Shown: positions 6,061 through 29,405 of the stretch, piece after piece | Layout: each line of letters starts with the position of its first letter | Position numbering within the stretch: the stretch's first letter is position 1 | Origin: Mycobacterium sp. HUMS_12744610 | GTDB taxonomy: Bacteria; Actinomycetota; Actinomycetes; Mycobacteriales; Mycobacteriaceae | Reading direction: 5' to 3' | DNA: 64,000 bases | NCBI RefSeq assembly: GCF_041206865.1 | Contig: NZ_JBGEDP010000001.1 | Location: 868,001 to 932,000, forward strand | The notes under the pieces: generated by a model | Seen by the model: only the letters and a program-made list of their open reading frames with translations | Told to the model about the DNA's origin: nothing | Database searches by the model: none | Program-made: the position numbers and the translations under genes

Positions 6061-6083
6061 ACCTACGAACTTAAGGACCGACT

Positions 6084-9957: not shown

Positions 9958-9959
9958 GC

Positions 9960-13413: not shown

Positions 13414-14607
13414 CTAGTTCGCCGACCAGGAGATCGGCAACGACAAATAGCCTCGGATCGGGCCCGACCGCAGGCGCTGCGCGCGGCCCAAGTCGACTTC
13501 CCAGTTGGGCACGCGGGCCAGCAAGGCGCGCAACGCGATCCGGGCCTCCATCCGGGCCAAGGACGCACCGAGACAGAAGTGAATGCCTCGGCCGAATGCC
13601 ACTTGGTGTTCGGGTTTGCGCCCGATGTCAAACACGTCGGGATCAGCGAACACGCGTTCGTCACGATTAGCCGAGCCGAACAACAACAGCACCGAATCAC
13701 CCGCCGACATTGTGACGCCATGCACTGTCACGTCGCGGGTCAACGTTCGCGAAAGTCCTTGAGCCGGTGAGTCATACCGCAGCAGCTCCTCAACAGCTGC
13801 CCCGAGCAAGCTCTCATCGCCAGCCAGCCGGTGGCGGGTGTCGCGATAGTCGGCCAGTACCACCGCGGCGTTGGCCAGCAGATTCGACGTCGTCTCATGA
13901 CCGGCGATCAGCAGCAGCAGGCAAAAGCCAAGCAGTTCGTCGTCACTAAGGTGCTTTCCGTCGATCTCGGCACACACCAACGCTGACATCAAATCGTCGC
14001 GCGGTTGGCCGCGGCGGTCGGCGAGGAAATCGGTGAAGTAGCCATAGATCGCGGCCGCGGCTGCCAAAGCCTCGCCGGTCTCGCCGTGGGTGGGATTGGA
14101 CTGCACCAACGCGTTCGACCATCGCCGAAATTGTGTACGGTCCTCGCGCGGCACACCGAGCAAATCAGCGATCACCATCGCTGGTAGTACAGCTGCGAAG
14201 TCGGCGACGAAATCGGCCGAACTGGCTTCCTGGATCAGGCCGGCCGTCAACTGATCAGCGAGGTCCTCGATCGCGCACGTCAGCGCCGCGATTCGTCGCG
14301 GGGTGAAGGCCTTGCTAACCAATGCCCGCAGCTGATCGTGTCGCGGGGGATCCATCAAAATCATCATCGGCAGCAGCGATTCGCGAAAAGTCGAGCCCGG
14401 TGGAGTCGGAAATACTCCGTCGACCGACGAGTAGCTGTGATGGTCAAGCAGCGCGCTGATGACATCCGCGTGGCGACTAAGTACCCAGGTGTTGGTATCG
14501 GCGGCGTGATAGACCGGTGCCGCGTCGCGTAGCTGCCGGTAGACGGGGTAGGGGTCGTCCTGAATTTCCGCGTCAAAGGGATCGTAGCGAAGTTGTACCG
14601 TCGACAT
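13414..14607 (-). CDS. cytochrome P450
   Basis: A soluble bacterial P450 of about 397 residues. The I-helix oxygen-binding motif is AGHETTSN, the K-helix ExxR is EELLR, and the heme-Cys loop is FGRGIHFCLGASLARME. I chose ATG at 14607 because an AGGAG lies six bases upstream; a GTG at 14622 is also in frame. It needs a ferredoxin and reductase, and none is adjacent. It is transcribed divergently from a TetR gene across a palindromic operator, so it is very likely controlled by that repressor. The substrate is unknown. Confidence 0.93.
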   Translation of the reverse strand: MSTVQLRYDPFDAEIQDDPYPVYRQLRDAAPVYHAADTNTWVLSRHADVISALLDHHSYSSVDGVFPTPPGSTFRESLLPMMILMDPPRHDQLRALVSKAFTPRRIAALTCAIEDLADQLTAGLIQEASSADFVADFAAVLPAMVIADLLGVPREDRTQFRRWSNALVQSNPTHGETGEALAAAAAIYGYFTDFLADRRGQPRDDLMSALVCAEIDGKHLSDDELLGFCLLLLIAGHETTSNLLANAAVVLADYRDTRHRLAGDESLLGAAVEELLRYDSPAQGLSRTLTRDVTVHGVTMSAGDSVLLLFGSANRDERVFADPDVFDIGRKPEHQVAFGRGIHFCLGASLARMEARIALRALLARVPNWEVDLGRAQRLRSGPIRGYLSLPISWSAN

Positions 14608-14634
14608 AGCGTCTCCTGCCACATTGCAGAACGT

Positions 14635-14659
14635 CGGTTTAGACTGAGAGTTTAAACCG
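14635..14659. promoter_or_regulatory. palindromic TetR operator between P450 and regulator
   Basis: An inverted repeat with arms CGGTTTA (14635-14641) and TAAACCG (14653-14659). The inner bases extend the symmetry (GACT/AGTT). It sits in the 65-bp gap between the divergent P450 and TetR starts, overlapping where both promoters must lie. Confidence 0.65.
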
Positions 14660-14672
14660 AGGGGAGGACTTT

Positions 14673-15254
14673 ATGCGGAAGATTCCCGCTCAGATTGCCG
14701 ACCGGTTGCCTGCCGCGGCCGAACTCTTCGCCGAGCGCGGGCTCAACGACACAAAGATCGAAGACGTCGCCGCGACCACGGGCATCGCCAAGGCCACGCT
14801 CTACTACTACTTCGCCGGCAAAGAAGAAATACTCGCCTTCCTCCTCGAAGACGCCCTACAACACGTCGCGCACGAGGTCACCGCGATCGTCGAGGCAGAC
14901 GGCGCCGCCGCCCAACGCCTGCACGACGTCATCAGTGCCCAACTGCGCGTGATGGCCCAGCGGCCCGCTGTCTGTCGCGCCCTCATAGGAGAACTGGGCC
15001 GCGCCGCCCGCATGCCCGTCATCGCCAACATGATCAGCACTGCCTACTTCGAACCCGTCGAGACCTTGCTTCGCGCGGGCGCTAACGACCGTTCACTCGA
15101 GGCTCTCGACAACCCCAGAGCTGCCGCCATCGCGCTATTCGGTGCAGTCACCACCAGCGCACTGACCTACCTAATCACCGACGATACGCTCGACGAAGAT
15201 CTAATCGCACGAACAATTCACGACGTCGTGTTTACCGGCATACGGCCACGCTAG
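14673..15254 (+). CDS. TetR-family regulator (P450-linked)
   Basis: A 193-residue TetR repressor. The HTH is IEDVAATTGIAKATLYYYF (residues about 30-48), with the usual Tyr-Phe/Lys-Glu linker after it, and an all-alpha C-terminal ligand domain. ATG at 14673 follows a GGGGAGG RBS. It is divergent from the P450 gene with a palindrome between them, which suggests autoregulation and control of the P450 and possibly the mmpS-mmpL genes behind it. It is unlike the other TetR proteins in the window outside the HTH. Confidence 0.9.
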   Translation: MRKIPAQIADRLPAAAELFAERGLNDTKIEDVAATTGIAKATLYYYFAGKEEILAFLLEDALQHVAHEVTAIVEADGAAAQRLHDVISAQLRVMAQRPAVCRALIGELGRAARMPVIANMISTAYFEPVETLLRAGANDRSLEALDNPRAAAIALFGAVTTSALTYLITDDTLDEDLIARTIHDVVFTGIRPR

Positions 15255-15899
15255 CTCCCCCCGCAGACCAATCTGCGACCACGCGTGTGCTCGATAGTCA
15301 ACGACTTTGAGCATTTCTGAACATCTCCTACCGCAACAGCTCACCCCCAGAACGCCCGCGTCCGATGGAGGTTCGCGGCCGGCGAGATCCGGGCACCTGA
15401 CCAGTGCAGCCAGAACGTCGGACCCGAAAACCGCTAGCCCACCACGGCAATACCGCAGGTTTCGAATACGACCACTCCACCAGCACAGTGCCAACACACG
15501 ACTTACACACCGCCCCTTGGTGTTTCGTGCACTGTGCAAAGTCTCGATGGTCGTCGCACACCAACCATGCGCCCGCACACGACGGGTCAAGTAGCCCGTG
15601 GCCGCGGGCAAAATTAGCGTCAGACGGGGGACTTGCCAGGGCTACGGAGGCGTGGCACAGCCTCGAAGCATCCAGGTCTCGAATGGCTCCGCCGGGCGGC
15701 GGCCGCAATAGTCAGATATGGCCAATCCGACCCGCGTCTCGGCAACGTGGGATGTCCACATCGCGATATTCGGTATCGCCGGTGGATCCTCACCCGAAGG
15801 CTGTCCCCGACGGCCTTCCGTTGTGTGGGCCACAGCCGCGAACCTCCGCGACCGGGCTTCCTTGGAGGCGCCGGGGGAGACCTCGACGTGATGGACGCT
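15255..15899. other. intergenic stretch without a supported gene
   Basis: About 645 bases with only mutually overlapping frames of ordinary length for this GC content. One minus-strand frame (15328-15708) contains clustered Cys/His residues (CDDHRDFAQCTKHQGAVCKS), which look zinc-finger-like. It lacks a convincing RBS or typical codon bias, so I do not call it a gene. Confidence 0.4.
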
Positions 15900-16508
15900 C
15901 TACGTCTTGACGTCGGGATCGTCTGTGTCACGCTGCGGGTTGGAAAGTCCTGGCGCGGGTGTATTTGATTGAGCTGCTGGCGGATTCGCCCCAGTCGTGC
16001 CAGTACCAGCAGTGCCAGGCGCCTTTTTCGTAGTGGTGTCTGCTTCGGGTTCAATCGGGTCGCGCAGATCGATCATTTCGGTGCCAGCCTGGGGAGATAT
16101 GGTCTTGGTCGTCCAGGTGGACTTGACCCTCGACGATTTGCCTTTGTGTTCGACGTGTACCTCGATGGCATCGGTTGCACTCGCCCCGCTGGTGAGTGTG
16201 AAGTAGACGCGAATCTTGGCTTTGCCGCCATCGAAGTTGATTGGCCCGGCACCAGTTTTGGAACGTCCGATTAATGGCAGCTTGGTGTTGGTGCCAGCTG
16301 CCATGAGTTCAACCGAATCGACTTGCGCGGCCCCGCTTCCCTCCTTGGCGAGGACGACTTCCACGAACCCGGTCTTGTCGAATTCGCTTGTCACCGTGAT
16401 GTTGGCGCGGTTCTGACGGATGTAGAGGACGACCGGCACGCCGATTGCGGCCCCCAACGTGGCGGCGGCAATGATGACGCCCCAAATAATCCAGTCGATG
16501 CCGAACAT
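15900..16508 (-). CDS. single-TM hypothetical protein
   Basis: About 202 residues from ATG 16508. A strongly hydrophobic TM helix occupies residues about 6-28 (WGVIIAAATLGAAIGVPVVLY). A predicted extracytoplasmic or cytoplasmic beta-rich region follows, and then a Pro/Thr/Ala-rich low-complexity tail from about residue 150. No known family is recognised. Its ATG overlaps the stop of the upstream gene in a TGATG arrangement, so the two unknown genes are translationally coupled and probably function together. Confidence 0.7.
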   Translation of the reverse strand: MFGIDWIIWGVIIAAATLGAAIGVPVVLYIRQNRANITVTSEFDKTGFVEVVLAKEGSGAAQVDSVELMAAGTNTKLPLIGRSKTGAGPINFDGGKAKIRVYFTLTSGASATDAIEVHVEHKGKSSRVKSTWTTKTISPQAGTEMIDLRDPIEPEADTTTKKAPGTAGTGTTGANPPAAQSNTPAPGLSNPQRDTDDPDVKT

Positions 16509-17191
16509 CAGGGACACCCGCACGGAAATGACTGTGCGCCCGTTATGGGGTCCACCTCGATGCCTCTATGACACACCTCGCTGCACCCGACCACCTTGCA
16601 TTGCAAGAGGCCGTTGAAGAATCGTCTGAGATGGCAGCGGTCGTCGTTGTCCTCCCACACGACCTCATACGGGCCCCTCGACGCAGTGCCCACGCGAAAA
16701 TCGATCGCACCCTCGTCGTCATTGCGCGTGGCTCGATAGAACGACACCGCTTCAGGGTGACCCGGATCCGGGGTCAACAGGTAGTCACCGTTGACCAGCG
16801 GAACCGCCGTGTGCCAGATGGCCGCGATGCGCTCGCCCTGACCCCGCTCAACGATGCCCAGACCTGAGCGCGCCTGAGCCCACGATTCTGCGGTGAAAGA
16901 CAATACGGTAGGGGTGTGGAGCGACGGATGATCCGCATCCGAGAACACGATATCTTGTAGCGAGGGTTCTTCCGCTAGACGCTGCGCGAGCTCGACACTC
17001 TCTTCGTCTTGAGCCAATTCATTTCGCACTCTTGGATCTAGCGGTGGCACGATCCCGGCGAGTTCGAGCACGAATGCTGCCATTGTTGCCGGCCACGCCG
17101 GCATGCCTACCCCCGTCATGGCACAAACGATAGGGCGATCGCCGCAGCATGGGGCGCATTTCGGCATTTTCGCAGCGGTGGTCAATTTCAT
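16508..17191 (-). CDS. hypothetical protein coupled to the TM protein
   Basis: Up to 227 residues. An internal ATG 24 codons in (MTGVGMPAWPATMAAF) is a plausible alternative start. The C-terminal third is Cys-rich (CHLRRF, CKVVGCSEVCHRG, SFPCGCP), suggesting a metal-binding or disulfide-stabilised end. No family is recognised. The TGATG junction with the following membrane-protein gene makes a two-gene unit. Acidic stretches (AQDEESVEL, DADHPS) and no signal peptide suggest a cytosolic protein. Confidence 0.6.
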   Translation of the reverse strand: MKLTTAAKMPKCAPCCGDRPIVCAMTGVGMPAWPATMAAFVLELAGIVPPLDPRVRNELAQDEESVELAQRLAEEPSLQDIVFSDADHPSLHTPTVLSFTAESWAQARSGLGIVERGQGERIAAIWHTAVPLVNGDYLLTPDPGHPEAVSFYRATRNDDEGAIDFRVGTASRGPYEVVWEDNDDRCHLRRFFNGLLQCKVVGCSEVCHRGIEVDPITGAQSFPCGCP

Positions 17192-17277
17192 TGATCAACG
17201 CTGCGCCCCTCGCGGTCCGCGGTGTCGGCGGACGGTGGCTACGGTCTCCACCTTGTCGTAGGGAGACGTTCCCAGGT

Positions 17278-17355
17278 CGCTGCTTCGACGAGGCCCACCG
17301 TGATGAGGAAGGGCACGAACATGCGTTGTTGGGCTTCGGGTTGGCGGGCCAAAGC
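17278..17355 (-). pseudogene. short atpE (ATP synthase subunit c) fragment
   Basis: A minus-strand frame (17239-17502) contains [11 protein letters not shown] and ITVGLVEAA. These match, as I recall the mycobacterial F0 subunit c sequence, the loop and second TM helix including the ion-binding Glu (the E of VEAA). About 25 codons are recognisable; the N-terminal helix and the end of helix 2 are absent. It cannot be a functional c-subunit. It is most likely a stray recombined fragment of atpE. Confidence 0.6.
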
Positions 17356-17788
17356 AGGCTCCAATCCCCCGGCGGGGGAGCGGCTGCGCAGTAGGACCAC
17401 AGGCAGGAGCGTTTGCTGGAAACGCCCGCCCGCTCGACCGCTCGCCCGGTTATCGGCCCTAGGAATTGACTCATCGAGTGAATCACAATGCGTTAGTGCC
17501 ACACTCGCTGCATCACGTCGAAACCGGTTGCAAGAGCGTGCGATGCGTATGGCGGCGGATTATCGGGAATGTATAGTGGCGCTCGACTACGTTGAAGTAC
17601 AACCGATTGCGCTATATGCGGTAGTTAACCAACAGTCGACGGGTTCCTGAGCCACCGAGTGGTGTGCGCCAGCCCGTCGAGTGCCTGGACCAGCTGTTGT
17701 GGGCGTGTCCCTGCTGCAAAACCCGCGAATGAAGTGGCATCATCTTTGCCGACTGGATAACTGATCAGCTGATGATTCTTCACTGTGG
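17356..17788. other. upstream region of recombinase operon
   Basis: About 430 bases with no supported gene. The last 40 bases have a strong AGGAGG (17798-17803 region) serving the first recombinase gene. A small dyad TTCACTGTGGGTGAAG at about 17779-17794 overlaps the start of that gene and could be an end or operator of the recombinase module. No tRNA gene is seen here. Confidence 0.35.
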
Positions 17789-18853
17789 GTGAAGTTGAGG
17801 AGGCGTGGGTTGGCTCTGGCTGTCGTGCGGGACCTGAGGGAGCAGCGGGCACCGGCGACCGAGGATGAGCTCGCCGGCTTCGAGACCGATGTGCTGGCCG
17901 GATTCGTCCTTGCCCGGGCATCGGCCGGGTTGGTCGACTCGACCATCCGCAACGACGTGAATCACCTTGAGCTGATCCGGGACTGGTTCGGTCGGCCGCT
18001 GTGGGAGATCCAGCCTGCTGACGCCGACACCTACTTCGGCAAGGTGCTGCGTGATGCCCGGGCGTCGACTCGGACCGGGCGGGCGGCCGCGCTGACGGTG
18101 TACTTTCAGTTCCTCGAACTGCGTCACAAGGTCGAGTTGCACAATCTCAGCGGCCGGGTCATCGAGTGCCCGCTCGATGAGATCAACCGACCGCGGGCGT
18201 GGGTGGATCCGCAGCTGCGCATCCCGCCGACCGCCGACGAGGTGGAGCAGCTGTTCGCGGGGTGGCGCGGGGAGCTGGTCACCTGCCGCAAGTTCGCCCC
18301 GACCGCCCGAAACTACGCCGTGGCTCGCCTGGTGGCCGATGTCGGATTGCGGATCAACGAGGCGCGGATGCTCGACCTGGATGACGTGCGCTGGGAGCTG
18401 GGCCGGTTCGGCAAGCTGAACGTCCGTCATGGCAAGGGATCTCGTCGCAAAGGTCCCAAGCCGCGGGTAGTGCCACTGATCAACGGCGCCGACCGCAGCC
18501 TGCAGTGGTTCATCGAAGACGTGCTGGGCCTGTTCGATGTCGACCCGAAAAACCATGCTGCGCCGCTGTTTCCGTCCGAACGCAAGAACATCGACGGGAC
18601 GTGTATGCGCGCGACCGCCGACGTCTATCGCCGCGCCCTGGCCGAGGCCACCGACCGATATCTGCCGAGGTGGTCGGGGAAGCTGACACCGCATGTGCTG
18701 CGGCATTTCTGCGCATCCCAGCTTTATCTGGCCGGTATGAACCTATTCGCGATCCAGGAACTATTAGGTCACGCCTGGACGGGCACAACGGCTCGGTATA
18801 TCAACTATCAGAAATTGCATCAGACGGGCGCGTCTCCGCTGGTCGCCTGCTGA
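17789..18853 (+). CDS. tyrosine recombinase 1
   Basis: A 354-residue site-specific recombinase. The N-terminal core-binding SAM-like domain spans about residues 25-110 and the catalytic domain about 165-345. Catalytic residues are visible: Arg in GLRINEARML, the Lys hairpin GKGSRRKGPK, HxxR in HVLRHF, His/Trp in LLGHAWTG and the nucleophile Tyr in TARYINYQ. The start is GTG 17789, or TTG 17810 placed six bases after an AGGAGG. It is the first gene of a recombinase operon; 128 bases separate it from recombinase 2. Confidence 0.9.
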   Translation: MKLRRRGLALAVVRDLREQRAPATEDELAGFETDVLAGFVLARASAGLVDSTIRNDVNHLELIRDWFGRPLWEIQPADADTYFGKVLRDARASTRTGRAAALTVYFQFLELRHKVELHNLSGRVIECPLDEINRPRAWVDPQLRIPPTADEVEQLFAGWRGELVTCRKFAPTARNYAVARLVADVGLRINEARMLDLDDVRWELGRFGKLNVRHGKGSRRKGPKPRVVPLINGADRSLQWFIEDVLGLFDVDPKNHAAPLFPSERKNIDGTCMRATADVYRRALAEATDRYLPRWSGKLTPHVLRHFCASQLYLAGMNLFAIQELLGHAWTGTTARYINYQKLHQTGASPLVAC

Positions 18854-18854
18854 A

Positions 18855-19002
18855 GCAGATCTGGCTATGGTGTCATGTCGCCTACAGGACAGGGCGTCCC
18901 ACCTGCATTGCTTGCATATCGCGCCCGTTGGATGCATGATCCTTTCGCCGGACGGTTGCGGGGATTCAGGTTGGAGGCGGCGTGGTGCGGGCAGATCTGG
19001 CT
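18855..19002 (+). repeat. 12-bp direct repeat flanking the recombinase 1/2 junction
   Basis: GCAGATCTGGCT occurs at 18855-18866, just after the stop of recombinase 1, and again at 18991-19002, inside the first codons of recombinase 2. The copies are 136 bases apart. The spacing and position could reflect a past duplication, or a recombination core; chance is not excluded. Confidence 0.4.
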
Positions 19003-20109
19003 GGGTCGGCGCATCTGGAGCTGGTCTCCGGAGTTGTGCAGTTGCGTCCGGAAGACGCTGTGCTGGAGGCGATGTTGCGCGGATGGCGTGCCCAGCAGGT
19101 TGCGCGTGGTTTGCGGGAGGAGACCATCGCGCCGCGGGAGCGGTTGGTGCGCCGGTTTGCGACGTTCACTAACGAGTACCCGTGGCATTGGCTGCCGGGT
19201 CATGTCGACGAGTGGACGCAGTCGTTGATGGCGGAGTCGCATCTGGCACCTTCGACGATTCGCGGCTATCAGACCGAGCTGCGATTGTTCAGCGAGTATT
19301 TGTGCGACGGCCGTTATAGCTGGGTTGCGGTGTGCGAGCAGGAGTTTGGTTCGGGTGTGCATCCGGTGCCGATCTGCCATGAGTGGAACACGATAGAGCA
19401 CCTCAATGGCTACGAGGGCAACCCAGAGGCCCGGCCATTCACCCGCGAGGAGTTGCAGCGGTTTCTCGACTACGCCGACGACCAGGTTGAGCGTGCGGTG
19501 TGCGCGAAACGCAAGGGCGCGTTGGCCGCCTACCGGGATGCGACGTTATTCAAAGTGGTGTATGGGTGGGGCCTGAGGCGGACCGAGACGGCGAAGCTGG
19601 ATGTAGTTGACTGGGGCCGTAACCCGGCGGTGCCGGAGTTCGGCCGGTTCGGGATGCTGCATGTGCGCTATGGCAAGTCGGTGCGCGGGCAACCGCCGCG
19701 GCGACGCAACGTGCCGTCGGTCATGGGGTGGGCGGTGGAAGCGGTCGCCGACTACGTCGACAACATCAGGCCCCGTTTCGGGTGCGAGGACCATCCGGCA
19801 CTGTGGGTGACCGAACGTGGCGGTCGCATCGCCCCGGCAGAGATCAACGCCCGCTTCGTCACATACCGTGACGCGCTCGGGCTACCGAAAACCCTTAGTC
19901 CACATAGCCTTAGGCATTCGTGGGTGACGCACCTTACTGAGGAGGGCGTTGACCGACGATTCATCCAGGAGGCCGTTGGGCATCGCTGCGATACGTCCAC
20001 CGCGATCTACACCCACGTGTCCGGTGACTTCATGAACACCGCGCTGCGCAAAGCCCTGGCGCCGGCGTTCGACACGGCGCCCGACCCCACGAGCGGCAAG
20101 GAGTCCTGA
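18982..20109 (+). CDS. tyrosine recombinase 2
   Basis: A 375-residue tyrosine recombinase. The N-terminal DNA-arm domain spans residues about 20-115. In the catalytic domain: Arg in YGWGLRRTETAKL, basic hairpin HVRYGKSVRG, HxxR in SPHSLRHSW, GHR in QEAVGHRCD and Tyr in TAIYTHVS. All five catalytic positions are present, so it should be active. GTG 18982 (or 18985) follows a GGAGG. Its stop overlaps the next ATG (TGATG at 20107-20111). It differs strongly in sequence from recombinase 1, so the pair is not a recent duplication. Confidence 0.92.
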   Translation: MVRADLAGSAHLELVSGVVQLRPEDAVLEAMLRGWRAQQVARGLREETIAPRERLVRRFATFTNEYPWHWLPGHVDEWTQSLMAESHLAPSTIRGYQTELRLFSEYLCDGRYSWVAVCEQEFGSGVHPVPICHEWNTIEHLNGYEGNPEARPFTREELQRFLDYADDQVERAVCAKRKGALAAYRDATLFKVVYGWGLRRTETAKLDVVDWGRNPAVPEFGRFGMLHVRYGKSVRGQPPRRRNVPSVMGWAVEAVADYVDNIRPRFGCEDHPALWVTERGGRIAPAEINARFVTYRDALGLPKTLSPHSLRHSWVTHLTEEGVDRRFIQEAVGHRCDTSTAIYTHVSGDFMNTALRKALAPAFDTAPDPTSGKES

Positions 20110-20441
20110 TGGCCCGCAAACTCGACTACCGATGGCACCTGCGTCAGGTGATGGCTGCACGCGAGATGTTCAGCACCACCGACCTGATAGAGCCGTTGGC
20201 GCAACGCGGCATCCATCTGTCGTCCAGCCAGGTCTATCGGCTCGTCGTCGAGCGACCCGAGCGGCTGAGCCTGAATATTCTGATGGCGCTGCTGGACGTC
20301 CTGGACTGCCGGATGGACGAGCTGATCGAACCGGTCGCCGCAGCCGCGCCGACGCGCAAGAAACGTGCCGCTGGCGGCGCCGACGCCGGTCTGGGCGGAC
20401 TGCGGCCAAAACGCGCTCGCATCAGCGGCATTGAAAGCTAA
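20109..20441 (+). CDS. small Cro/C1-type HTH protein 1
   Basis: A 110-residue DNA-binding protein. Residues about 5-72 form a Cro/C1-like (HTH_26-type) helix-turn-helix with LRQVMAAREMFSTTDLIEPL, SSSQVYRLVVERPERLSL and LLDVLDCRMDELI. A basic tail (TRKKRAAGG, RPKRARISG) follows. The start overlaps the stop of recombinase 2 and only three bases separate its stop from the next ATG, so it is co-translated with both. It could be the element's regulator or a DNA-targeting subunit. It resembles HTH protein 2 (24611-24934) in fold and position. Confidence 0.8.
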   Translation: MARKLDYRWHLRQVMAAREMFSTTDLIEPLAQRGIHLSSSQVYRLVVERPERLSLNILMALLDVLDCRMDELIEPVAAAAPTRKKRAAGGADAGLGGLRPKRARISGIES

Positions 20442-20444
20442 GCA

Positions 20445-22874
20445 ATGCCAAAGACATTCGCATCTGAGGTGCTCGCCGACCCGATCGGGGTCATCGTCGA
20501 TCTGGTGCTTGGCGAAAAGCCCGGGCTGGATCGACGCACGGTCATCGGACTGGTCGAGGCGATGGCCGGTGGACGAGCGAAACGGCGCCGCCTCGCCCAG
20601 GCATTGCTGGACCGGCCCGCAGTGTTGACCGACGGGCGCTCGCCAGCGCCACGTGGGATTGGTGAGCTGCTGATCGCGCTGAATGCGGCTGGCGCCATGC
20701 ATATTTCGTCTCCGGTTTGCGCAGGTTGCGGCAAGCATCTACACACCCTGCAGCGACGCGGGGATGACTGGTATTGCGCGAAGTGCGGTCCTCGACGAGA
20801 ACCCTGCACAATATGCGGCTCGAGCAGGCCGGTTTACCTTCGCGACCGCGACGGCCGACCCAGGTGTTCACGATGCCTGCCCGATGACGGGCGGGATCCG
20901 ACGCCGCTCATCGTCGACGTCGTGAGGCGAGCAGACCCGAGCTTGTCGGGTGAGGAGATCAACGCGGCAATCGAGGCGGTGGTGCCGCGTGCCGGACGCC
21001 GATACCGATTGGCGTGGGCATTGCAGCAGCGACCCGCCCTGCTGACCGGCGCCGGTGCCGAGGCGTCTGATCCTGCGGTGCTGCGGTTGATCGACCAGCT
21101 CGGGGACGCCGGAGCGAAAGGCATTGTCCACCCGGCCTGCCCCGGTTGTGGTCGAATCATCCACCTGCACCGGCCTATCGGCGGAAAGTGGTTATGCCGC
21201 AGCTGCACCGCCAAGTCCCGTGCCCAACCATGCGCTCGCTGCGGCGCGCTTCGCGAAGCCGCCACCCGTGACGAACAGGGCCAACCCGTGTGTCCGAGCT
21301 GCCTGGTCACCGATCCGATCAACCAGGAAGTCTGCGTGGACTGCGGCCGCCGCCGACCGGTTAGTATCCGCTGCGAGGACGGACCACGCTGCGCCAGTTG
21401 CCGCCCGCCGACGATCGCCGAATGCGCGATCTGCGGACGGACCGCGCCGAGCACGATTTCAATTGCCACCGGCCGCCCGTGGTGCGAAGCCTGCCACAAG
21501 CGGTGGGCCCAATGTATTTCGTGCGGCGAGTTCCGCCCTATCCGCGGCGGCACGCTGGCCGAACCGCTTTGCGCCGAATGCGTTCGTGACGAGTCCGGTT
21601 TCTGGCGCACCTGTCCCGGATGTGGTCAACGCGGCCGCCGGTATACGAGCCGGTGCGCCCGCTGCAACGTGCAGCAGCGGCTGCGCGAGCTGCTCGGCGA
21701 CGCCCGCGGTGACATCCGCCCCGACCTGTGCGACCTCTACGAGGCCCTGGTCGCGGTCGAACGTCCCAACACGGCCGCGGTATGGCTCGATAACGGCGGC
21801 GGTCCCGCCATCTTGCGCGAGCTAGAGGCCGGTCAGCGCGTGCTGTCGCACGAGACGCTCGACGAACTGCCCGCGGGCAAGCCGGTCGAGCACCTGCGCA
21901 GCGTCCTGGTCGCGATCGGCACCCTGCCACACCGCGACGAACAGATGCTGCGGTTGCAGCGCTGGACCGCCGCCCTCATCACCGAACGCGTCGATCCCGA
22001 GGAGCGCGGCCTGCTGCACCGCTACGCCGTCTGGCACGTCATCCGCCGCCTGCGTGCCCGCGTCGGCGACACCGACACCACCTACGGGCAAGCCCGCGCC
22101 GCCAAGCGCTCCATCAGATCTGCAGCTGCCCTACTGGATTGGCTTGCCGCGCATAACCTTAAGCTTGCCACTGCCCGACAGGGAGATCTCGACCGGTGGC
22201 TAACCAGCGCCGCCGCCGGCCAGCGTCGCGACAGCGGCAACTTCGTGCGCTGGGCACGCCGAAACAGGCTCACCCGAGTCGAGCACGCCGCCCAACGATG
22301 GGACGGCCCCAGCGGCGTCATCGACACCGAGACCCGCTGGGAACAAGCACGCTGGCTGCTACACGACGACACGATCGACACCGCCGGCCGTGTCGCTGCC
22401 CTGCTGGTGCTGCTCTATGCCCAAACCGCCGCCGCCATAAGCGAACTGACCATTGATGACATCGAACTCACCGACGAAAGCGTCCGGTTGCGGCTCGGAC
22501 ACGAGCCGATCCTGATCCCAGCACCGCTAGACCGACTGATCCGCGCCCTGGTCTCCACCCGATCACCTCACGCCGCCGTCGGCCGCCCTCGCAGCTCGCG
22601 ATGGCTATTCCCCGGCGGGCAGCCCGGCCGCCACCTCAGCGCCTTCCGCATGGCCGAACGACTCCGTCAACTCGGCATCCAAGCCAGCCGCGCACGTTCC
22701 GCCGCCCTGTTTCAACTCGCCACCGACCTGCCAGCCGCCGTGCTGGCGCGCACCCTGGGAATCCACATCAGCGTCGCCGCGACCTGGCAGCGCGCCAGCA
22801 GCGGCGACTGGACCACTTACGCAGCCGAAATCAGCCGCCGATCACCCACTGAGATAAGGATGCGGGTCACGTGA
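20445..22874 (+). CDS. multi-zinc-ribbon, recombinase-like protein without catalytic residues
   Basis: An 809-residue protein. Between residues 92 and 407 it has sixteen CxxC pairs (for example 92/95, 111/114, 232/235, 251/254, 390/393, 404/407), enough for about eight zinc ribbons. Residues about 25-100 and 165-240 are an internal repeat: a helical segment ending in SSPVCAGCGK and then VHPACPGCGR. The C-terminal 300 residues resemble a tyrosine recombinase (LLYAQTAAAISELTIDDIEL), but Arg I is replaced and there is no HxxR or nucleophile Tyr. It is probably a DNA- or protein-binding structural subunit of a recombination complex. Its stop overlaps the next GTG by four bases. Confidence 0.8.
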   Translation: MPKTFASEVLADPIGVIVDLVLGEKPGLDRRTVIGLVEAMAGGRAKRRRLAQALLDRPAVLTDGRSPAPRGIGELLIALNAAGAMHISSPVCAGCGKHLHTLQRRGDDWYCAKCGPRREPCTICGSSRPVYLRDRDGRPRCSRCLPDDGRDPTPLIVDVVRRADPSLSGEEINAAIEAVVPRAGRRYRLAWALQQRPALLTGAGAEASDPAVLRLIDQLGDAGAKGIVHPACPGCGRIIHLHRPIGGKWLCRSCTAKSRAQPCARCGALREAATRDEQGQPVCPSCLVTDPINQEVCVDCGRRRPVSIRCEDGPRCASCRPPTIAECAICGRTAPSTISIATGRPWCEACHKRWAQCISCGEFRPIRGGTLAEPLCAECVRDESGFWRTCPGCGQRGRRYTSRCARCNVQQRLRELLGDARGDIRPDLCDLYEALVAVERPNTAAVWLDNGGGPAILRELEAGQRVLSHETLDELPAGKPVEHLRSVLVAIGTLPHRDEQMLRLQRWTAALITERVDPEERGLLHRYAVWHVIRRLRARVGDTDTTYGQARAAKRSIRSAAALLDWLAAHNLKLATARQGDLDRWLTSAAAGQRRDSGNFVRWARRNRLTRVEHAAQRWDGPSGVIDTETRWEQARWLLHDDTIDTAGRVAALLVLLYAQTAAAISELTIDDIELTDESVRLRLGHEPILIPAPLDRLIRALVSTRSPHAAVGRPRSSRWLFPGGQPGRHLSAFRMAERLRQLGIQASRARSAALFQLATDLPAAVLARTLGIHISVAATWQRASSGDWTTYAAEISRRSPTEIRMRVT

Positions 22875-24465
22875 CAGACATGCGGGCCGGGCGGATCGGC
22901 GTGATCGGCGCGGGAATTGCGGGCCTGGTCACCGCGAAAGTGCTGCGCGAGGACGGCTTCGAGGTGATCGTGTTCGAGAAGGAGCAGGCGATCGGCGGTG
23001 TTTGGACCCAATCGCGGACCTATCCCGGACTGCGTACCAACAACTCACGCGACACCTACGCATTCTCCGACCATCCCTATGACCGATCAGCCGACATCTT
23101 CCCGAGCGCTGAGCAGGTGCGCGCGTATCTGGCCTCGTATGTGGCCCGGTTCGAGTTGGCCCCGCTTCTTCGGTTATCGACTGAGGTGGTGCGGGTGTCT
23201 CGCCACGGTAACGAATTCACGGTAGAAAGCTGTGGCCCAACGGGTTTGAGCACCGTGGTGTGTGACTTTGCGGTGGTATGCGCGGGAACCTTCTCTGAAC
23301 CGGACATGCCTGCGATCGACGGTGCCGACCGGTTCACCGGGACGGTGGTCCATTCAAGCCAAGCGACCAATCCTGCCCTGTTCGCGGGGCGACGGGTGGT
23401 GATCGTGGGCGCGGGCAAATCCGCGCTGGATTGCGCGGCGTGGGCCGGGTCGCACGCGCAGGAATGCACGCTGGTGTTCCGAAAGGCCCACTGGATGATG
23501 CCCCGCTACTTCCCGGGAGGTATTCCCGCCGACCGGCTGACTCTGGGACGTTCGACCGAGGCGTTCTTCCGCTACCACCACCCCAGCCTGATGGAGAGGT
23601 TGTTGCACGGGCCGGGCAAGCAGCTGACCAACTTGGTCTGGCGGGTGGTGAGTCTGCTGTTTCGATTCCTGCTCAGGATGCCTGCGGCCATGGTGCCTGA
23701 CGAGCCGATGCCTACTGGAATCGAAAACCTGGGGTTCGGCAAGGAGTTCTACGATATGGCCCGCCGCGGTCGGCTGGTCCTGCGGCGTGACTCGGTCGCG
23801 GCCTTTCTCGGCGGACCGCAGGTCCTGCTGGCCAGCGGCGATCAGATCGCTGCCGACATCGTCGTTTTCGCCACCGGCTGGCGCCAGCCGTTGTCGTTTC
23901 TAGCGCCCGAACTGCGGACACCCGTTGTCTCCGACGGGCGATTCCAGCTCTACCGGCATATCCTTCCGCCCACCGAGCAGCGCCTCGGGTTCGTGGGCTA
24001 CGCCTCATCGACCGCGTGTCAGCTCAGCTCAGAAATCTCAGCCCACTGGCTTTCACGATGCTTCCGCGGCGAACTCGCACTTCCCAGTCTCGATGAAATG
24101 CAGACTGGATACGACGCGTGCAGGCCTGGCTGGAGGAGGTCATGCCAGCTCGACCGCAGGGCTATCAAATCGGACCGCACCTGGTGCACCACATCGACGA
24201 CCTGTTGGCCGACATGGGATTACCGACACGGCGAACCAGCAACTTCGTCAGCGAATATTTCGGGTCGTTCTCGCCGACACGCTACCGAAACCTCGCCCAA
24301 GAACGGCGCCCGGCCCGCGGTCGCAAGATCGACCGTCGCCGCTACTACTTGAGCGCCCAGCATGCTCTTGCGGCATTTGCCGCTCTCACCCTGGTTGGTG
24401 TCCTTCGCCGACACAACGCGACCCGGCGCCGGACCAACGAACACCCCGATCGGAACCAGACATGA
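22871..24465 (+). pseudogene. flavin monooxygenase inside the recombinase operon, one frameshift
   Basis: The first frame from GTG 22871 encodes a class B flavoprotein monooxygenase. It has an FAD Rossmann motif GVIGAGIAGL, a GGVWTQSRTYPGL segment, and an NADPH motif VVIVGAGKSALD. After about 24110 the family sequence continues in another frame (VQAWLEEVMPARPQG to LTLVGVLRRH) up to 24465. One missing base in GACGCGTGCAGG restores about 531 residues. GTGA overlap upstream and ATGA overlap downstream lock it into the operon. The frameshift may be a sequence error. Its role in, or as cargo of, the element is unknown. Confidence 0.8.
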
Positions 24466-24614
24466 CACCGACAGACTCGGACCCGACCAACCTGGCATTC
24501 CGACAGTTGCGATATCCGACGTCGCCAGAGCACGTGCACGCCACCCACGTCGAAGATGCCTGGGTCACCGGGCAACGCCGGGTCGCCGATCGATGGAAAG
24601 GACTCGCTCGATGA
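24462..24614 (+). CDS. 50-residue ORF linking FMO and HTH protein 2
   Basis: A short frame from ATG 24462 that overlaps the FMO C-terminal frame by ATGA and overlaps the next gene's ATG by ATGA (24611-24614). The protein is about 50 residues (MTPTDSDPTNLAFRQLRY onward), polar and without a recognised domain. The double four-base overlap is the main evidence that it is translated. It may be a linker or a small accessory protein. Confidence 0.5.
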   Translation: MTPTDSDPTNLAFRQLRYPTSPEHVHATHVEDAWVTGQRRVADRWKGLAR

Positions 24615-24934
24615 AATGGAACCTGCGATTGGCCGCGGCCAATCGCGGCATCTGGAAGGCCAGCGAACTCCAGCGGATGCTCGCCGACCGCGGTCTGGTC
24701 ATCAGCGCCGGCAAGATGTCGGGCCTGTGGTCGGGCAACCCCAACGCCATCAAACTGAACGACCTGGACGTCATCTGCGCCGTCCTCGGCTGCGGGGTCG
24801 ACGAGTTGCTGATTCCCGAACCCGAAACCGTGGCAGCGGCCACGCCCGTCACCGACGACGAGTCAGCGGCGGTCGGTGAGGCCCGGTCGGTCACGCCGCG
24901 CACTCGCGCCGGCAGGTCGCTGCCGCCGCGATGA
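24611..24934 (+). CDS. small Cro/C1-type HTH protein 2
   Basis: A 107-residue protein whose N-terminal 70 residues form a Cro/C1-like HTH (RLAAANRGIWKASELQRML, SAGKMSGLWSGNP, DLDVICAVLGCGVDELL). A disordered, partly basic tail follows. The start ATG 24611 was chosen because it opens the HTH domain, overlaps the 50-residue ORF and is preceded by GAAAGGA. Its stop overlaps the next ATG (24931-24934). It is a positional and structural counterpart of HTH protein 1: both directly precede a zinc-binding recombinase-like protein. Confidence 0.8.
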   Translation: MKWNLRLAAANRGIWKASELQRMLADRGLVISAGKMSGLWSGNPNAIKLNDLDVICAVLGCGVDELLIPEPETVAAATPVTDDESAAVGEARSVTPRTRAGRSLPPR

Positions 24935-26202
24935 ACTGCCTGCACTGCGGGACTGCGCTGCCTGCCAACAGTCGCCGCGACCAAAAATACTGCGGCAGAA
25001 GCTGTTCAAGAAGAGCGTCCTACCAACGCAGAAAGGCGGGACTGCCTCCTCGCCCGCCCCGGCGGCATCCAGCCTTGGAATCCGACGACCCCGTGCTCGC
25101 GGCCGCCGCGATACACGCCCGGGAACTCGGTGCCGCCCACGATTGGTGCGGTGAGACCACAAACCGATGCCTCGACGCCCTGCTCACCCTTCTGGCCGGT
25201 CGGCCCACCGGTGATCGCGTGCCGCTCACCGAGGTTCGAACCCGGCCGCATCGGCTCGCGTCCCGTCGCAGGCTCGTCGAAATCCTATCCCACTTCGACC
25301 TGCTGAAAGACGACACCGAACCTCCGATCCGTGCCTGGATCGACCGCGTCACCGCGGAACTTCCGCCAGGATTCGCCGAGCCGGCCCACCACTGGCTCCT
25401 TACCCTGTTGGTCGGCGGCGCACGTGCTCGCCCACGATCACCGAGGACGCTCTACAGCTACTTCGGCTCGGTCAAGCCCCTTCTCGCGCACTGGTCCACC
25501 TCCTACGAGCATCTCAGGGAGGTCACCAGGGCCGACGTCGACGCGGCGCTGCGGCCGTTTCAGGGAAACCAGCGCCACAATCTGATCAAGGCGCTGCGGT
25601 CGCTGTTCCGGCACGCCAAGAAGAATGCTCTGGTCTTCAGCAACCCAACAGCGGGTTTGAAGAGCCAACCAGTAGACCAGGACCTCCTGCCCATCACCGA
25701 TGACGAGGTGCGCTCGATCGAACAGCTCGCCAGCGAACCGCTTGAACGCCTCGTCGTGGCGCTGAGCGTCGAACATGCCTGCCGCACAGCCGTTATACGC
25801 AAACTCACGCTCGACGACATCGACCTGCCGAACCGGCGGATCACCCTTGCCGGACACAACCAACGGCTCGGTGAGCTCACCCACATCGCGCTGAACACAT
25901 GGCTCGACCACCGCCGGGACAGATGGCCCCACACTCCGAACCGGCACGTTCTACTCACGACGAAAACTGCATTGCGCACAACGCCGGTCAGTCAAAAATC
26001 GGTGAAACCATCGTTGAGCGACAATGGATTCACGATCGAACGCATCCGTGCCGACCGAATCCTTCACGAAGCGCTGACCGCAGGCCCGGACCCACTGCAC
26101 CTGTCTCTCGTCTTCGGCATCTCCCACAACACCGCACGGCGCTACACCACCGTGGCCGAACGGCTGCTCAGCGACGAACTCGAGCAGCCGGTAGAACCGT
26201 AG
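24931..26202 (+). CDS. zinc-finger recombinase-like protein, catalytically degenerate
   Basis: A 423-residue protein. The N-terminus has a four-Cys zinc finger (C3, C6, C21, C25; CLHCG and YCGRSCSRR). Residues about 140-230 look like a recombinase arm domain (YSYFGSVKPLLAHW, LRSLFRHAKKN). Residues 240-410 have the recombinase fold (LTLDDIDLPNRRITLAG) but no Arg-His-Arg-Tyr set: the HxxR region reads RADRILHEAL. Phage-type strand exchange by this protein alone is therefore unlikely. It ends the overlapping operon. It is smaller than the 809-residue protein but built on the same plan of zinc ribbon plus dead recombinase. Confidence 0.78.
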   Translation: MNCLHCGTALPANSRRDQKYCGRSCSRRASYQRRKAGLPPRPPRRHPALESDDPVLAAAAIHARELGAAHDWCGETTNRCLDALLTLLAGRPTGDRVPLTEVRTRPHRLASRRRLVEILSHFDLLKDDTEPPIRAWIDRVTAELPPGFAEPAHHWLLTLLVGGARARPRSPRTLYSYFGSVKPLLAHWSTSYEHLREVTRADVDAALRPFQGNQRHNLIKALRSLFRHAKKNALVFSNPTAGLKSQPVDQDLLPITDDEVRSIEQLASEPLERLVVALSVEHACRTAVIRKLTLDDIDLPNRRITLAGHNQRLGELTHIALNTWLDHRRDRWPHTPNRHVLLTTKTALRTTPVSQKSVKPSLSDNGFTIERIRADRILHEALTAGPDPLHLSLVFGISHNTARRYTTVAERLLSDELEQPVEP

Positions 26203-26376
26203 TGCCACCCAACGCCGCCAGACTCAGGGCCCGCGAACCCGCCGCAGTTATGAACCTTCACAGCCGAAAGGCCGTGGGTTCCAACTGAAATCGCTTCAAT
26301 CCGGCTGAACTCACGGGAAACTCACTGGTAACCCGCCATATTCGATTCGGTCGTATTGCCGCTTGACAGTGTCGGC
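26203..26376. other. gap between recombinase operon and IS30 element
   Basis: About 170 bases without a gene. If the recombinase module has a right end it should lie here; I see no tRNA and no clear repeat of sequence from the 17.7-kb side. Confidence 0.35.
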
Positions 26377-27752
26377 GTCGTCTGAAAACTGACCCCGTGT
26401 CGACGCGGTGGTTTCTAGGTGCGGTCGCAACACTTCTCTAGATTCTGGAGGTTGTGTTGGCATCGTCGCGTCGGGTGAAGAAGGGGCCGGGACGTCGTCC
26501 GCAGTCGGCCAAGCGTCAGCGGTTCATGGAGTTGCGGGCTCGCGGGTGGAGCGTGCGGGCCGCGGCCCGCGAAGTCGGTGTGTCCCGGTCCGCTGCGACG
26601 AACTGGACACGCGGTTACAAGACCTACCGCAACGGCGTCGCGGTCGGGTTCGTCCCGCCGCTAGATCGACTAGCGGTCCGCCAGATCAGCACGCGATACC
26701 TGTCCCAGGACGAGCGCATCGAGATCGCCGATCTGCATCACTCAGGGCTGAGGGTGCGGACGATCGCCACCCGACTCGGTCGAGCGCCGTCGACGATTTC
26801 GAGGGAGCTACGGCGCAACGCACCAGCCGGCCGCGGATATCAGCCCTTCGATGCCCACCGGCGAGCCACCGCGCGACGAGCACGTCACCACCGCCGTCGG
26901 GTCGACACCAACGACCAGCTCGGTAACGCGGTCGCCGAGCTGCTTCTTCAGCGTTGGAGCCCCCAACAGATCAGCCGTCACCTCCGCCACCGCTTCCCCG
27001 ATGATTCATCGATGTGGTTATGCCACGAAAGCATCTATCAAGCTGTCTATCAACCGAATTCACGTTTCATGCGGCCCTCGCGATTAGCGCCGCACCGACG
27101 CTCACCGCTGCGCACCGGTCGAGATCACCGCCGAGCGCATCACCGCCAGAGTTGCCGGCGGCCGCGGTTCCAGCAGCCGATGCTCACCATCCACGACCGG
27201 TCCTTCTCGGCTGTCGACCGGTCTGAAGCCGGCCACTGGGAAGGCGACCTTATCATCGGTAATAACCACCTCTCGGCGATCGGCACTCTGGTCGAACGCC
27301 AGACCCGGATGCTGCGGTTGGTGCATCTGCCTCGCAGTGACGCCGACTCCCTGCACGCGGCCTTGGTGGCCCGCATGAAGGATCTGCCACCCACGCTGAT
27401 GCGGTCGATCACCTGGGACCAGGGCACCGAGATGGCGCGCCACCTTGCCACCACCGACAAGCTCGGCGCGCCCGTCTACTTCTGCGACTCCAGATCACCC
27501 TGGCAACGCGGCACGAACGAGAACACCAACGGACTGCTGCGCGACTACTTCCCGAAGGGCGTCACCCTCATCAGCCACCCGCCGGAGCAGTTGTTGGCCG
27601 TCGAACACGAACTCAACCATCGCCCCCGCATGGTCCTCCAAGACCGTTGCCCCGCCGATCTATTCGCTGCCCTGTTAGTCTCGAGTGATCCGTCGGTGTT
27701 GCGACGTTGAGTAGAACCCACCCCGTCGAAAAGGGGTCAATTTTCGGCCGCC
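26377..27752 (+). mobile_element. IS30-family insertion sequence
   Basis: Imperfect terminal inverted repeats bound this element. The left end GAAAACTGACCCCG (26384 on) and the right end, read on the other strand, GAAAATTGACCCCT (from 27745) match over about 33 bases, including TCGACG and GGTGG further in. It is about 1.38 kb and contains one intact transposase. I could not identify a target duplication, so the outermost few bases are uncertain. Confidence 0.8.
26454..27710 (+). CDS. IS30-family transposase
   Basis: A 418-residue DDE transposase. N-terminal HTH region: AAREVGVSRSAATNW, and LSQDERIEIADLHHSG with TIATRLGRAPSTISREL. The catalytic core has the IS30 signatures GHWEGDLIIG (first Asp), TWDQGTEMA (second Asp) and RGTNENTNGLLRDYFPKG (Glu). 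It appears complete and potentially active. It inserted between the recombinase operon and the excisionase-like gene. Confidence 0.92.
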   Translation: MLASSRRVKKGPGRRPQSAKRQRFMELRARGWSVRAAAREVGVSRSAATNWTRGYKTYRNGVAVGFVPPLDRLAVRQISTRYLSQDERIEIADLHHSGLRVRTIATRLGRAPSTISRELRRNAPAGRGYQPFDAHRRATARRARHHRRRVDTNDQLGNAVAELLLQRWSPQQISRHLRHRFPDDSSMWLCHESIYQAVYQPNSRFMRPSRLAPHRRSPLRTGRDHRRAHHRQSCRRPRFQQPMLTIHDRSFSAVDRSEAGHWEGDLIIGNNHLSAIGTLVERQTRMLRLVHLPRSDADSLHAALVARMKDLPPTLMRSITWDQGTEMARHLATTDKLGAPVYFCDSRSPWQRGTNENTNGLLRDYFPKGVTLISHPPEQLLAVEHELNHRPRMVLQDRCPADLFAALLVSSDPSVLRR

Positions 27753-27796
27753 GTTGACAGCGGTTGTGCTAAGTAGTTGGGTGAGGGCGAATCGCT

Positions 27797-28003
27797 CTAC
27801 ACCCGAGTCGATTCCAGCCAATCTTTGACGTCATCCAGTAACCATCGACGGTGCCGATCGCTAAGCCTGAGGTGATGTGGACCAGGCGCATCAATCCCAC
27901 GTTCCCGCCTGGCCGCCCATTCATGCAGCGTTGAGACCGGAACTCCGGTCATCGCTCGAACTTCATGAGCGGTGAGCATGACCGACGCATTTTCTATCGT
28001 CAT
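27797..28003 (-). CDS. excisionase/MerR-like small HTH protein
   Basis: A 68-residue protein from ATG 28003. It has a winged-helix excisionase-like fold: MLTAHEVRAMTGVPVSTLHEW, then LRLSDRHRRWLLDDVKDWLES. Proteins of this type act as recombination directionality factors or as small regulators. It lies 45 bp beyond the IS30 element and faces the recombinase operon. It may therefore have belonged to the 17.8-26.2 kb element before the IS30 insertion. The longer upstream frame is not needed. Confidence 0.65.
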   Translation of the reverse strand: MTIENASVMLTAHEVRAMTGVPVSTLHEWAARRERGIDAPGPHHLRLSDRHRRWLLDDVKDWLESTRV

Positions 28004-28083
28004 CGTCTCCAACCCCAGTTGCGTCCAGCAGAGTGGTGTACGAGCCGGTGATGACCGGCGTGTCGTAGCCGGATGAATGAAGG

Positions 28084-29405
28084 TCATCGCGTGATTCTTC
28101 GAGGGACCGACCAAAGTCACTCGAGCAAAGGAATCAACGCGATGACCATTGCCCACGATATCGACCTGTCTGCCGTGCTGGCCGAACGACTCACCACCAC
28201 GCACCCTGATGTGCTGCGCGAGTTGTTGGCCGCCTTCATTCACGCCCTGATGGGCGCCGAAGCCGACGCGGTGTGCGGTGCCGGCTACGGCCAGCGCAGC
28301 AGCGAGCGCACCAATTCCCGCAACGGGTATCGGCACCGCGAGTTTGACACCCGCGCAGGCACATTGGATCTGGCGATTCCCAAGCTAAGGCAAGGTTCGT
28401 ACTTCCCGGACTGGCTGCTGGAACGGCGCAAACGCGCCGAGCGGGCCCTGACCACGGTGGTGGCTACCTGCTACCTGCTGGGCGTTTCGACGCGGCGGAT
28501 GGACAAACTCGTCGAGACTCTGGGCATCACCAGCTTGTCGAAGTCCCAGGTCAGCGTGATGGCCAAAGAGCTCGACGCCGCGGTCGAGGCGTTCCGGACC
28601 CGGCCACTGGATGCAGGCCCGTACACGTTCATGGCTGCTGACGCCCTGGTGCTCAAGGTTCGCGAAGCAGGCCGGGTGGTCAACGTGCACGCGCTGATCG
28701 CCACCGGGGTCAACGCCGAGGGCTACCGCGAAATCCTGGGCATCGACGTCACCACCGCCGAGGACGGGGCCGGCTGGCTGACCTTCCTGCGGTCGCTGAC
28801 CGCCCGCGGCCTATCAGGGGTCCGTCTGGTCACTTCCGACGCCCACGCCGGTCTGGTGGCCGCGATCGGCGCCACCCTGCCTGGGGCATCGTGGCAACGG
28901 TGTCGCACCCACTACGCCACCAACCTGATGGCCATCACTCCGAAATCATCGTGGCCGTGGGTACGCACACTACTGCATTCGGTCTTCGATCAACCTGACG
29001 CCGGTTCCGTTGCAGCCCAATATGACCGCATCATCGACGCACTGGCCGACAAGCTCCCCAAGGTCGCCGACCACCTCGAAGACGCCCGCGCCGACCTGCT
29101 CGCCTTCACCGCCTTCCCCAAACAAATTTGGCGGCAGATCTGGTCCAACAACCCACAAGAACGACTCAACAAGGAAATCCGCCGGCGCACCGACGTCGTC
29201 GGAATCTTCCCCGACCGCAACGCCCTAATCCGCCTCGTCGGCGCGGTGCTGGCCGAACAACACGACGAATGGGCCGAATCCCGCCGCTACCTCGGCCTCG
29301 ACGTCCTCAGCAAATCCCGCGCCGACCACACGCCATCAACAGAACAGGAGGACACCCCGGCGGCACTGACCGCCTAAACCACCAAGTCGAAGAATCACAC
29401 GACGA
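28084..29405 (+). mobile_element. IS1081-like element (IS256 family)
   Basis: Terminal inverted repeats TCGCGTGATTCTTCGA (28087-28102) and, at the other end in reverse complement, TCGTGTGATTCTTCGA (29402-29387) bound one intact transposase gene. Size is about 1.32 kb, the size class of IS1081. A target duplication was not found, so the outer bases are approximate. Confidence 0.85.
28142..29377 (+). CDS. IS1081-like transposase
   Basis: A 411-residue mutator-type (IS256-family) transposase. Key residues: Asp in MAADALVLKV, Asp in LVTSDAHAGLVAAIG with the CxxH of WQRCRTHYA, and Glu in NNPQERLNKEIRRR. From memory it closely resembles the IS1081 transposase of the M. tuberculosis complex over its whole length, including TRRMDKLVETLG. 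It is intact and starts at ATG 28142, 55 bp inside the left repeat. Confidence 0.92.
   Translation: MTIAHDIDLSAVLAERLTTTHPDVLRELLAAFIHALMGAEADAVCGAGYGQRSSERTNSRNGYRHREFDTRAGTLDLAIPKLRQGSYFPDWLLERRKRAERALTTVVATCYLLGVSTRRMDKLVETLGITSLSKSQVSVMAKELDAAVEAFRTRPLDAGPYTFMAADALVLKVREAGRVVNVHALIATGVNAEGYREILGIDVTTAEDGAGWLTFLRSLTARGLSGVRLVTSDAHAGLVAAIGATLPGASWQRCRTHYATNLMAITPKSSWPWVRTLLHSVFDQPDAGSVAAQYDRIIDALADKLPKVADHLEDARADLLAFTAFPKQIWRQIWSNNPQERLNKEIRRRTDVVGIFPDRNALIRLVGAVLAEQHDEWAESRRYLGLDVLSKSRADHTPSTEQEDTPAALTA

Follow-up and report, generated by a model that had tools for sequence, protein, structure and literature searches.

Multi-recombinase elements (RIT, recombinase-in-trio, and Tn554), elements with a catalytically dead recombinase-fold partner (SEs and GInts) and occasional insertions in transposase genes are already in print. 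Here these systems are compared with a mobile element, B, found in a 64,000-nucleotide stretch of the genome of Mycobacterium sp. HUMS_12744610 (NZ_JBGEDP010000001.1, positions 868,001 to 932,000 of the forward strand), referred to as the window. Coordinates are window positions, and L and G numbers denote the loci and genomes compared. B is very probably a cargo-carrying site-specific transposon. It belongs to a widespread actinobacterial family and homes to tyrosine-recombinase genes, at the position one codon past the catalytic Tyr codon. As many of these genes reside in other mobile elements, B has the look of a parasite living on mobile DNA.

The SEs resemble B in combining a tyrosine-recombinase operon with cargo and a site preference; their operon includes a recombinase-fold protein free of catalytic residues (Tfp), of which Zn809, the zinc-array protein of B, would be a putative counterpart. 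One SE insertion in an IS3 gene has been reported. The SE genes are those for IntA, Tfp, IntB and Srap, and a 6-bp fingerprint is left at attR, whereas B has one active-type recombinase, a helix-turn-helix (HTH) protein, a zinc-array protein and right-terminal bases that recur. An intA-tfp-intB-srap operon was not found, as the order was recombinase-HTH-zinc protein in all seven annotated plasmid loci examined (an eighth plasmid locus is without annotation) and B itself has no second active-type recombinase. Tn554 and the Tn554-like elements, the latter occurring in Actinomycetota, are likewise site-specific tyrosine-recombinase transposons, but Tn554 encodes TnpA, TnpB and TnpC (PMC3414803). 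These three were not found in the gene content of B, and DUF6262 genes lay outside the element in the two loci where they were seen. The genes that do resemble Tn554 tnp genes are those interrupted by B-type elements in several loci.

In the GInts, a degenerate recombinase (GinC) is encoded next to active ones, an arrangement that the putative degenerate recombinase of B would share, and a conserved 5' operon is followed by cargo, as in B; unlike B, they have three recombinase-type genes plus ginD (PMC5385486). The gene content of B did not correspond to a ginABCD operon, homology to GinC or GinD itself not having been searched. RIT elements resemble the locus in their tandem overlapping recombinase genes, and some have been reported inside a transposase gene; they differ from B in having three recombinases, each of which carries a possible catalytic motif, and the available part of the source mentions no zinc or HTH subunit (PMC3414803). 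Three adjacent competent tyrosine recombinases were not found in B, which has one PF00589 protein with an HTH_26 protein and a zinc protein as partners. An earlier note, made from the letters of the window alone, had proposed a mobile system akin to yet distinct from RIT elements, and this was borne out for an element in which an HTH protein accompanies a zinc-rich protein resembling a degenerate recombinase. Homing introns and inteins exploit the DNA of conserved active-site codons and are spliced out, but nothing suggests splicing of B. Among the papers listed by a literature search, none was seen to report an element aimed at the catalytic Tyr codon in recombinase genes; most subscription journals lay outside its coverage, so this absence is unproven.

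Ends, copies and empty sites of element B

The locus comprises eight codirectional open reading frames (ORFs) between 17789 and 26202, with the junctions TGATG at rec2/HTH1, then a 3-bp gap, GTGA and three times ATGA, all as the earlier note had described. Its two active-type recombinases (rec1, matching PF00589 at 4.6e-20, and rec2) and its two Cro/C1-type HTH proteins were also confirmed. Its reading of the genes as a single operon with four recombinase-like proteins was wrong: the locus consists of two nested mobile elements, since B occurs alone and the rec1 site is empty elsewhere. Element A (rec1, HTH2 and Zn423) and element B are separate, with B nested in A, and rec1, previously taken for a partner recombinase, is the gene that B interrupts. 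The features are as follows.

18803..24530, + strand: inner element B, whole; 5,728 bp; six copies in its own genome; empty site in L141 and L163
18803..18981, + strand: left end of B; pairwise alignments of relatives begin at or beside 18803
First 51 nt of the B left end, + strand: replacement rec1 3' end, in frame, from which the rec1 ORF takes its final 16 codons and its stop
18982..20109, + strand: rec2, active-type tyrosine recombinase of B, 375 aa; PF00589 at 4.7e-20
20109..20441, + strand: HTH1 of B, Cro/C1-type, 110 aa; HTH_26 at 1.1e-14
20445..22874, + strand: Zn809 of B, 809 aa, zinc-ribbon array and putative degenerate recombinase-like C-terminus; invariant Cys pairs, profile comparisons
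22871..24465, + strand: cargo flavin-monooxygenase gene, frame broken; PF00743 at 5.1e-39
24495..24530, + strand: right end of B; approximate right-end pattern, present in 56 elements including B
17630..18802, + strand: left part of outer element A, with its left end near 17630 and rec1 from 17789 to one codon past the catalytic Tyr codon (the ends of A are not fixed to the base)
24531..24614, + strand: severed rec1 3' end (outer element A); uninterrupted 365-aa protein 100% identical in G100
24611..24934, + strand: HTH2 of outer element A; HTH_26 at 5.9e-10
24931..26202, + strand: Zn423 of outer element A, 423 aa, cysteine-rich N-terminus and putative degenerate recombinase-like domain; TIGR02224 at 7.4e-5, phrog_1 at 4.1e-13

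A search of the strain's own genome with Zn809 revealed four full-length copies at 100% identity and two close incomplete copies, and B itself is present six times, four times at full length and twice with internal deletions. The repeated unit was limited to 18803-24530 and was ~99.9% identical where aligned, with the terminal bases identical in all six copies. Four different left contexts were observed. The window copy is flanked by rec1 of element A; the copies in L009, L011 and L013, which share one larger unit, are flanked by rec1' of a diverged element, A'; the L014 copy has on its left a tyrosine recombinase (PF00589, 8.2e-17) that we took for Tn554-TnpB-like and on its right the flank of A'; and the L010 copy lies in antisense within an AMP-binding-enzyme gene (PF00501, 1.6e-30), a site found uninterrupted in three other genomes (80-89% identity, 500/500 nt).

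The comparison of empty with occupied sites that the earlier note had suggested yielded the ends of B. L141, a same-genome paralog of element A, reads ...GATATATC joined directly to CACGTCCACGCC..., which are exactly the window flanks without B; its rec1 is interrupted by an insertion sequence (IS) at a different place. Locus L163, in a further genome of this genus (G100), also lacks B. It matches the window at 99.98% identity across 5,418 bp and at 100% across 1,835 bp, and it encodes a whole rec1 protein, 365/365 residues of which are identical to the rejoined window rec1. From these two empty sites, B is 5,728 bp long and its target was neither duplicated nor lost on insertion. More widely, window positions 9365-9958 and 13388-26365 compared with L163 revealed nearly the same island, without B, in the genome of another species representative, and this near identity indicates that the island was shared recently.

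The codirectional genes and overlapping junctions would be expected of one composite element whose four recombinase-like proteins act jointly. This is extremely improbable, as B stands alone in six copies, one of them within the AMP-binding-enzyme gene, the upstream recombinase changes from locus to locus while rec2-HTH-Zn stays constant, and the empty rec1 site already refutes such an element as a fixed unit. It is also very improbable that B spread among cousin elements through homologous recombination of flanks rather than by its own recombinase. The mixed flanks of L014 are what recombining B copies would give and are best explained in this way, and one larger unit is present in copies at L009, L011 and L013; the process is plausible for individual rearrangements like that of L014. 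However, window element A and A' showed no DNA alignment outside B among the matches listed, and B has exact junctions in unrelated recombinase, transposase and AMP-binding-enzyme genes, sites which refute flank recombination as a general route.

The idea that rec1 is a helper of B was rejected because the upstream gene varies between loci. The 50-aa ORF at 24463-24614 was rejected as a real gene, being a chimera of a start codon from the B right end and the severed rec1 3' end. A one-base length difference disrupts the monooxygenase gene in the window copy, and full-length 531-aa ORFs are present in L009, L010 and L011.

Recurrent target of element B

Relatives of rec2 with 72-89% identity were found in 80 genome contigs, mostly from Actinomycetota with a few metagenome-assembled genomes labelled otherwise, and B-matching DNA was found in 107 plasmid records. 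The set analyzed consisted of 88 fetched relatives (the 80 contigs and eight plasmid loci) and the window. Left ends were placed by pattern in 80 of these; six had none by pattern (L073, L088, L098, L112, L124 and L129, with a variant of the pattern in L124), and three were uncounted (L061, a duplicate of L053, and L069 and L077, which begin too close to the contig end). After removal of 14 left ends with less than 150 nt upstream and three without a usable ORF (L070, L116 and L132), 63 scorable cases were obtained, with L182 outside all counts.

In 52 of these 63 cases, the upstream ORF was a tyrosine recombinase cut off directly after its catalytic Tyr codon, with junctions such as ...LGHAHVQTTLDLYG and ...LGHWTVSSTMRYV, each ending at the insertion point. 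Of these interrupted recombinases, 48 could be clustered, and they fell into 26 groups at 40% identity. A logo of 71 distinct sites with 36 nt upstream, in which recombinase and other sites were mixed and L009, L010 and L014 were entered by hand, gave ACSACS-nnGnnCTAYnnn immediately before the element, corresponding to the codons of T-T-x-x-Y. ACSACS occupied positions -18 to -13, followed by G at -10 (54%), C at -7 (58%), T at -6 (97%), A at -5 (83%) and C or T at -4. The ends of B, its exact insertion at the window site, its multicopy state and its recurrent target are shown.

In Streptomyces sp. SM1, where the element measures 4,605 bp, we read the left-junction contigs L119 and L121 as pairing with the right-junction contigs L118 and L120 into two uninterrupted recombinase frames. 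The first is Tn554-TnpB-like (PF00589, 5e-11) and is followed by an ORF that is presumably tnpC-like. The second is a recombinase followed by an HTH gene, and its whole relatives were found at 98-99% identity and, in an annotated Streptomyces, at 84% over 99% of the query. In three plasmids, B-type elements adjoin recombinase and DUF6262/'transposase' genes resembling tnpA/tnpB/tnpC.

Several points weigh against homing to the catalytic Tyr codon as stated. The sample was confined to rec2 relatives in the above identity range, and the right ends of relatives were placed by an approximate pattern with up to 9 mismatches. The 52 calls were made by a fixed junction pattern in 41 cases and by eye in 11, one of the latter (L103) being a relic without the Tyr codon, and PF00589 was matched at E<=1e-3 by only 36 of the 63 upstream ORFs. 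All 52 recombinase insertions were sense oriented, the search having covered the sense orientation only. In five loci (L058, L081, L085, L097 and L137) the insertion was 4 nt further from the Tyr codon. The joined frames were open in 42/44 cases at the true junction, compared with 35/44 and 40/44 when the right flank was shifted by 1 and 2 nt. Finally, 11 of the 63 upstream ORFs were not recombinases, which indicates that the target is a DNA motif rather than the gene as such. These sites included the ISL3-type transposases of L072, L075, L102 and L114, two of them backed by Pfam; the other two names, like that of L056, which lacks a Pfam hit and which we take to be an IS3-like transposase, come from motifs. 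The Pfam-backed DNA ligase genes of L133 and L134 fit the fixed pattern and were left out of the 52, and the upstream ORFs of L071 and L078 had no Pfam hit and were left unassigned. The other two of the 11 are L127 and L131, which adjoin another copy.

These other targets (transposases, a ligase gene and the AMP-binding-enzyme gene) and the concentration of information in the T at -6 and the A at -5 would also be explained if B needed merely a short TAY-like core, with recombinase sites overrepresented since insertions in mobile DNA are tolerated. We consider this quite unlikely, because tolerance gives no reason why the codon position should coincide in 52 of the 63 cases. ACSACS is informative too, though protein conservation in a set of mostly recombinase sites would by itself yield that.

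The in-frame tail 'NPRELHQTGE' that B adds was considered as a selected protein part and rejected, since the 4-nt-shifted loci read the tail in another frame and open joined frames are undiscriminating in GC-rich DNA. The left terminus was AAGGCTC in four of the five shifted loci and also in the unshifted L093 and L123. In L127 and L131, the left end abuts the apparent right end of another copy, head to tail, and the right end of a resident element may serve as an insertion target there, as judged from these arrangements.

Relatives, partner proteins and a proposed mechanism

In the 90 best pairwise alignments listed by identity, every one that extends to the left end has base 1 or 2 as its first position. 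The shared core stops at ~4.0 kb in most pairs listed, with variable sequence beyond. The left end is the exact starting point of seven draft contigs and the right end the exact stopping point of six, breaks that multicopy repeats are expected to give. Both ends were placed for 56 elements, ranging from 4,048 to 7,926 bp. The earlier note's gene set co-occurs elsewhere in part: the rec2-HTH-Zn trio was found in many loci with varying flanks and cargo, while the two trios of the window belong to separate elements. With a strict cutoff of 1e-100 for the rec2-relative alignment, a match was found in 8/396 genomes of the phylum, own genome included. In L139, from ~1,150 nt past the left end, the nesting is reversed, a B-type recombinase gene being split by ~5.2 kb with recombinase-like ORFs; this insert may be Tn554-like.

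For SEs and Tn554, a 6-bp fingerprint is reported to be copied from the donor left flank to the new right junction (PMC10214605). No such fingerprint was seen here, as 0 of 48 right ends equaled their own left flank, in a comparison where right ends were located by pattern and copies in the same genome may share a donor. Right-end forms recurred among the 56 elements (CCATTA in 34, CCAGAG in eight, CCGTTA in seven, CCATTT in five and others in two), while the left flanks differ and are mostly TAYnnn.

In rec2, the residues R199, H308, R311, H334 and Y343 are invariant across eight aligned sequences. Zn809 has an array of Cys pairs, with 16 CxxC motifs in most full-length relatives, and a full-length cysteine-rich ORF is present in 62 of the 88 loci, many of which are short contigs. 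Zn809-like proteins (E<=0.001) were found in 45/148 genomes of the genus, own genome included; most of the matches listed outside the own genome were at ~30-36% identity. At least 1,012 such proteins were present among 8,000 candidates scored, and those among 120 listed were mostly named 'hypothetical protein'.

The earlier note's view of the zinc proteins as dead recombinase relatives stood in part: the H-x-x-R and Tyr positions are unconserved in the Zn809 alignment, the same was read for Zn423 from its sequence alone, and the recombinase fold is backed by sequence profiles only. A search of the Zn809 alignment against PDB profiles led no further, yielding matches of zinc-finger type and chance hits alone (E>=0.02). 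It is unlikely that the zinc proteins are instead unrelated zinc-finger DNA binders. That would agree with window Zn809 having no Pfam match and with its weak profile match to recombinase catalytic domains (E 0.006, probability 6%). However, the latter match is collinear and confined to the C-terminal part of Zn809, with five shuffled controls at E 0.43-0.93 and the N-terminal part at 0.68. In addition, 4/40 members of the Zn809 family match PF00589 (best 3.6e-4), and public annotation names three members of the zinc-protein family integrases. Zn423, which matches the XerC model TIGR02224 and the phage integrase model phrog_1 (Pfam only at 0.0083), appears the clearer recombinase relative of the two.

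We propose that rec2 would cut the target and insert B, and that the DNA encoding T-T-x-x-Y would be read as the target. The zinc and HTH proteins may bind DNA and help to choose or hold it. With one recombinase-type protein active and its partner putatively dead, single-strand exchange and copy-out would be favored, which would fit the retention of multiple donor copies. Element A is a cousin of B and was invaded by it.

Outer elements and implications

The A' elements (rec1', an HTH protein and a zinc protein) are antisense insertions in istB. They occupy different IS21 elements, in each case exactly ahead of the E-W codons, a conserved position; in L009, A' spans 6023-16916 (reverse complement). 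Insertion was seen with both flanks in two clearly different istB types (L009; L011 and L013) and in a third from the right flank only (L014). The joined flanks of L013 give a continuous IstB reading, and the L011 fragment matches IstB_IS21 at 1.6e-36. Two distant rec2 relatives (L176 and L177) are located behind H-I-H-x-G-(Y/F) codons of a gene that is similar in both. No pattern of that type was found by eye in the distant relatives L173, L174, L175, L178, L179 and L181, and no common gene was found in the left flanks of element A in the window, L141 and L164. Downstream of A and B, window positions 26454-29377 contain two transposase-like genes, which we take to be IS30-like and IS256-like; the second also adjoins the A paralog in L141.

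The A' and distant-relative sites suggest, rather than show, a class of elements homing to different conserved codons of mobile genes. In its widest form, this would be an actinobacterial transposon class whose members each pair a single active recombinase with an HTH protein and a degenerate recombinase bearing a zinc array, and live by homing into conserved active-site codons of other mobile elements: the catalytic Tyr codon for B, the codons before E-W of IS21 istB for A' and perhaps H-I-H-x-G-(Y/F) codons for the distant relatives, with the variable zinc/HTH partner as an interchangeable target selector. Such a strategy would provide a target that is conserved in evolution, abundant and mobile, and whose use does the cell no harm. 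We offer this tentatively as possible, leaning slightly against it.

Many site-specific elements aimed at conserved genes use host housekeeping genes. The target of B is instead the active-site codon of the enzyme class that would move B, often in competitors. If the reading of B as a transposon homing to this codon is true, some 'tandem recombinase' clusters annotated in actinobacteria would be nested insertions. Recombinase C-termini in databases may be chimeric, with the tail after the Tyr coming from the insert. A recombinase with a readable target in a protein-coding motif would also be on offer, and a natural restraint on mobile elements would become testable.

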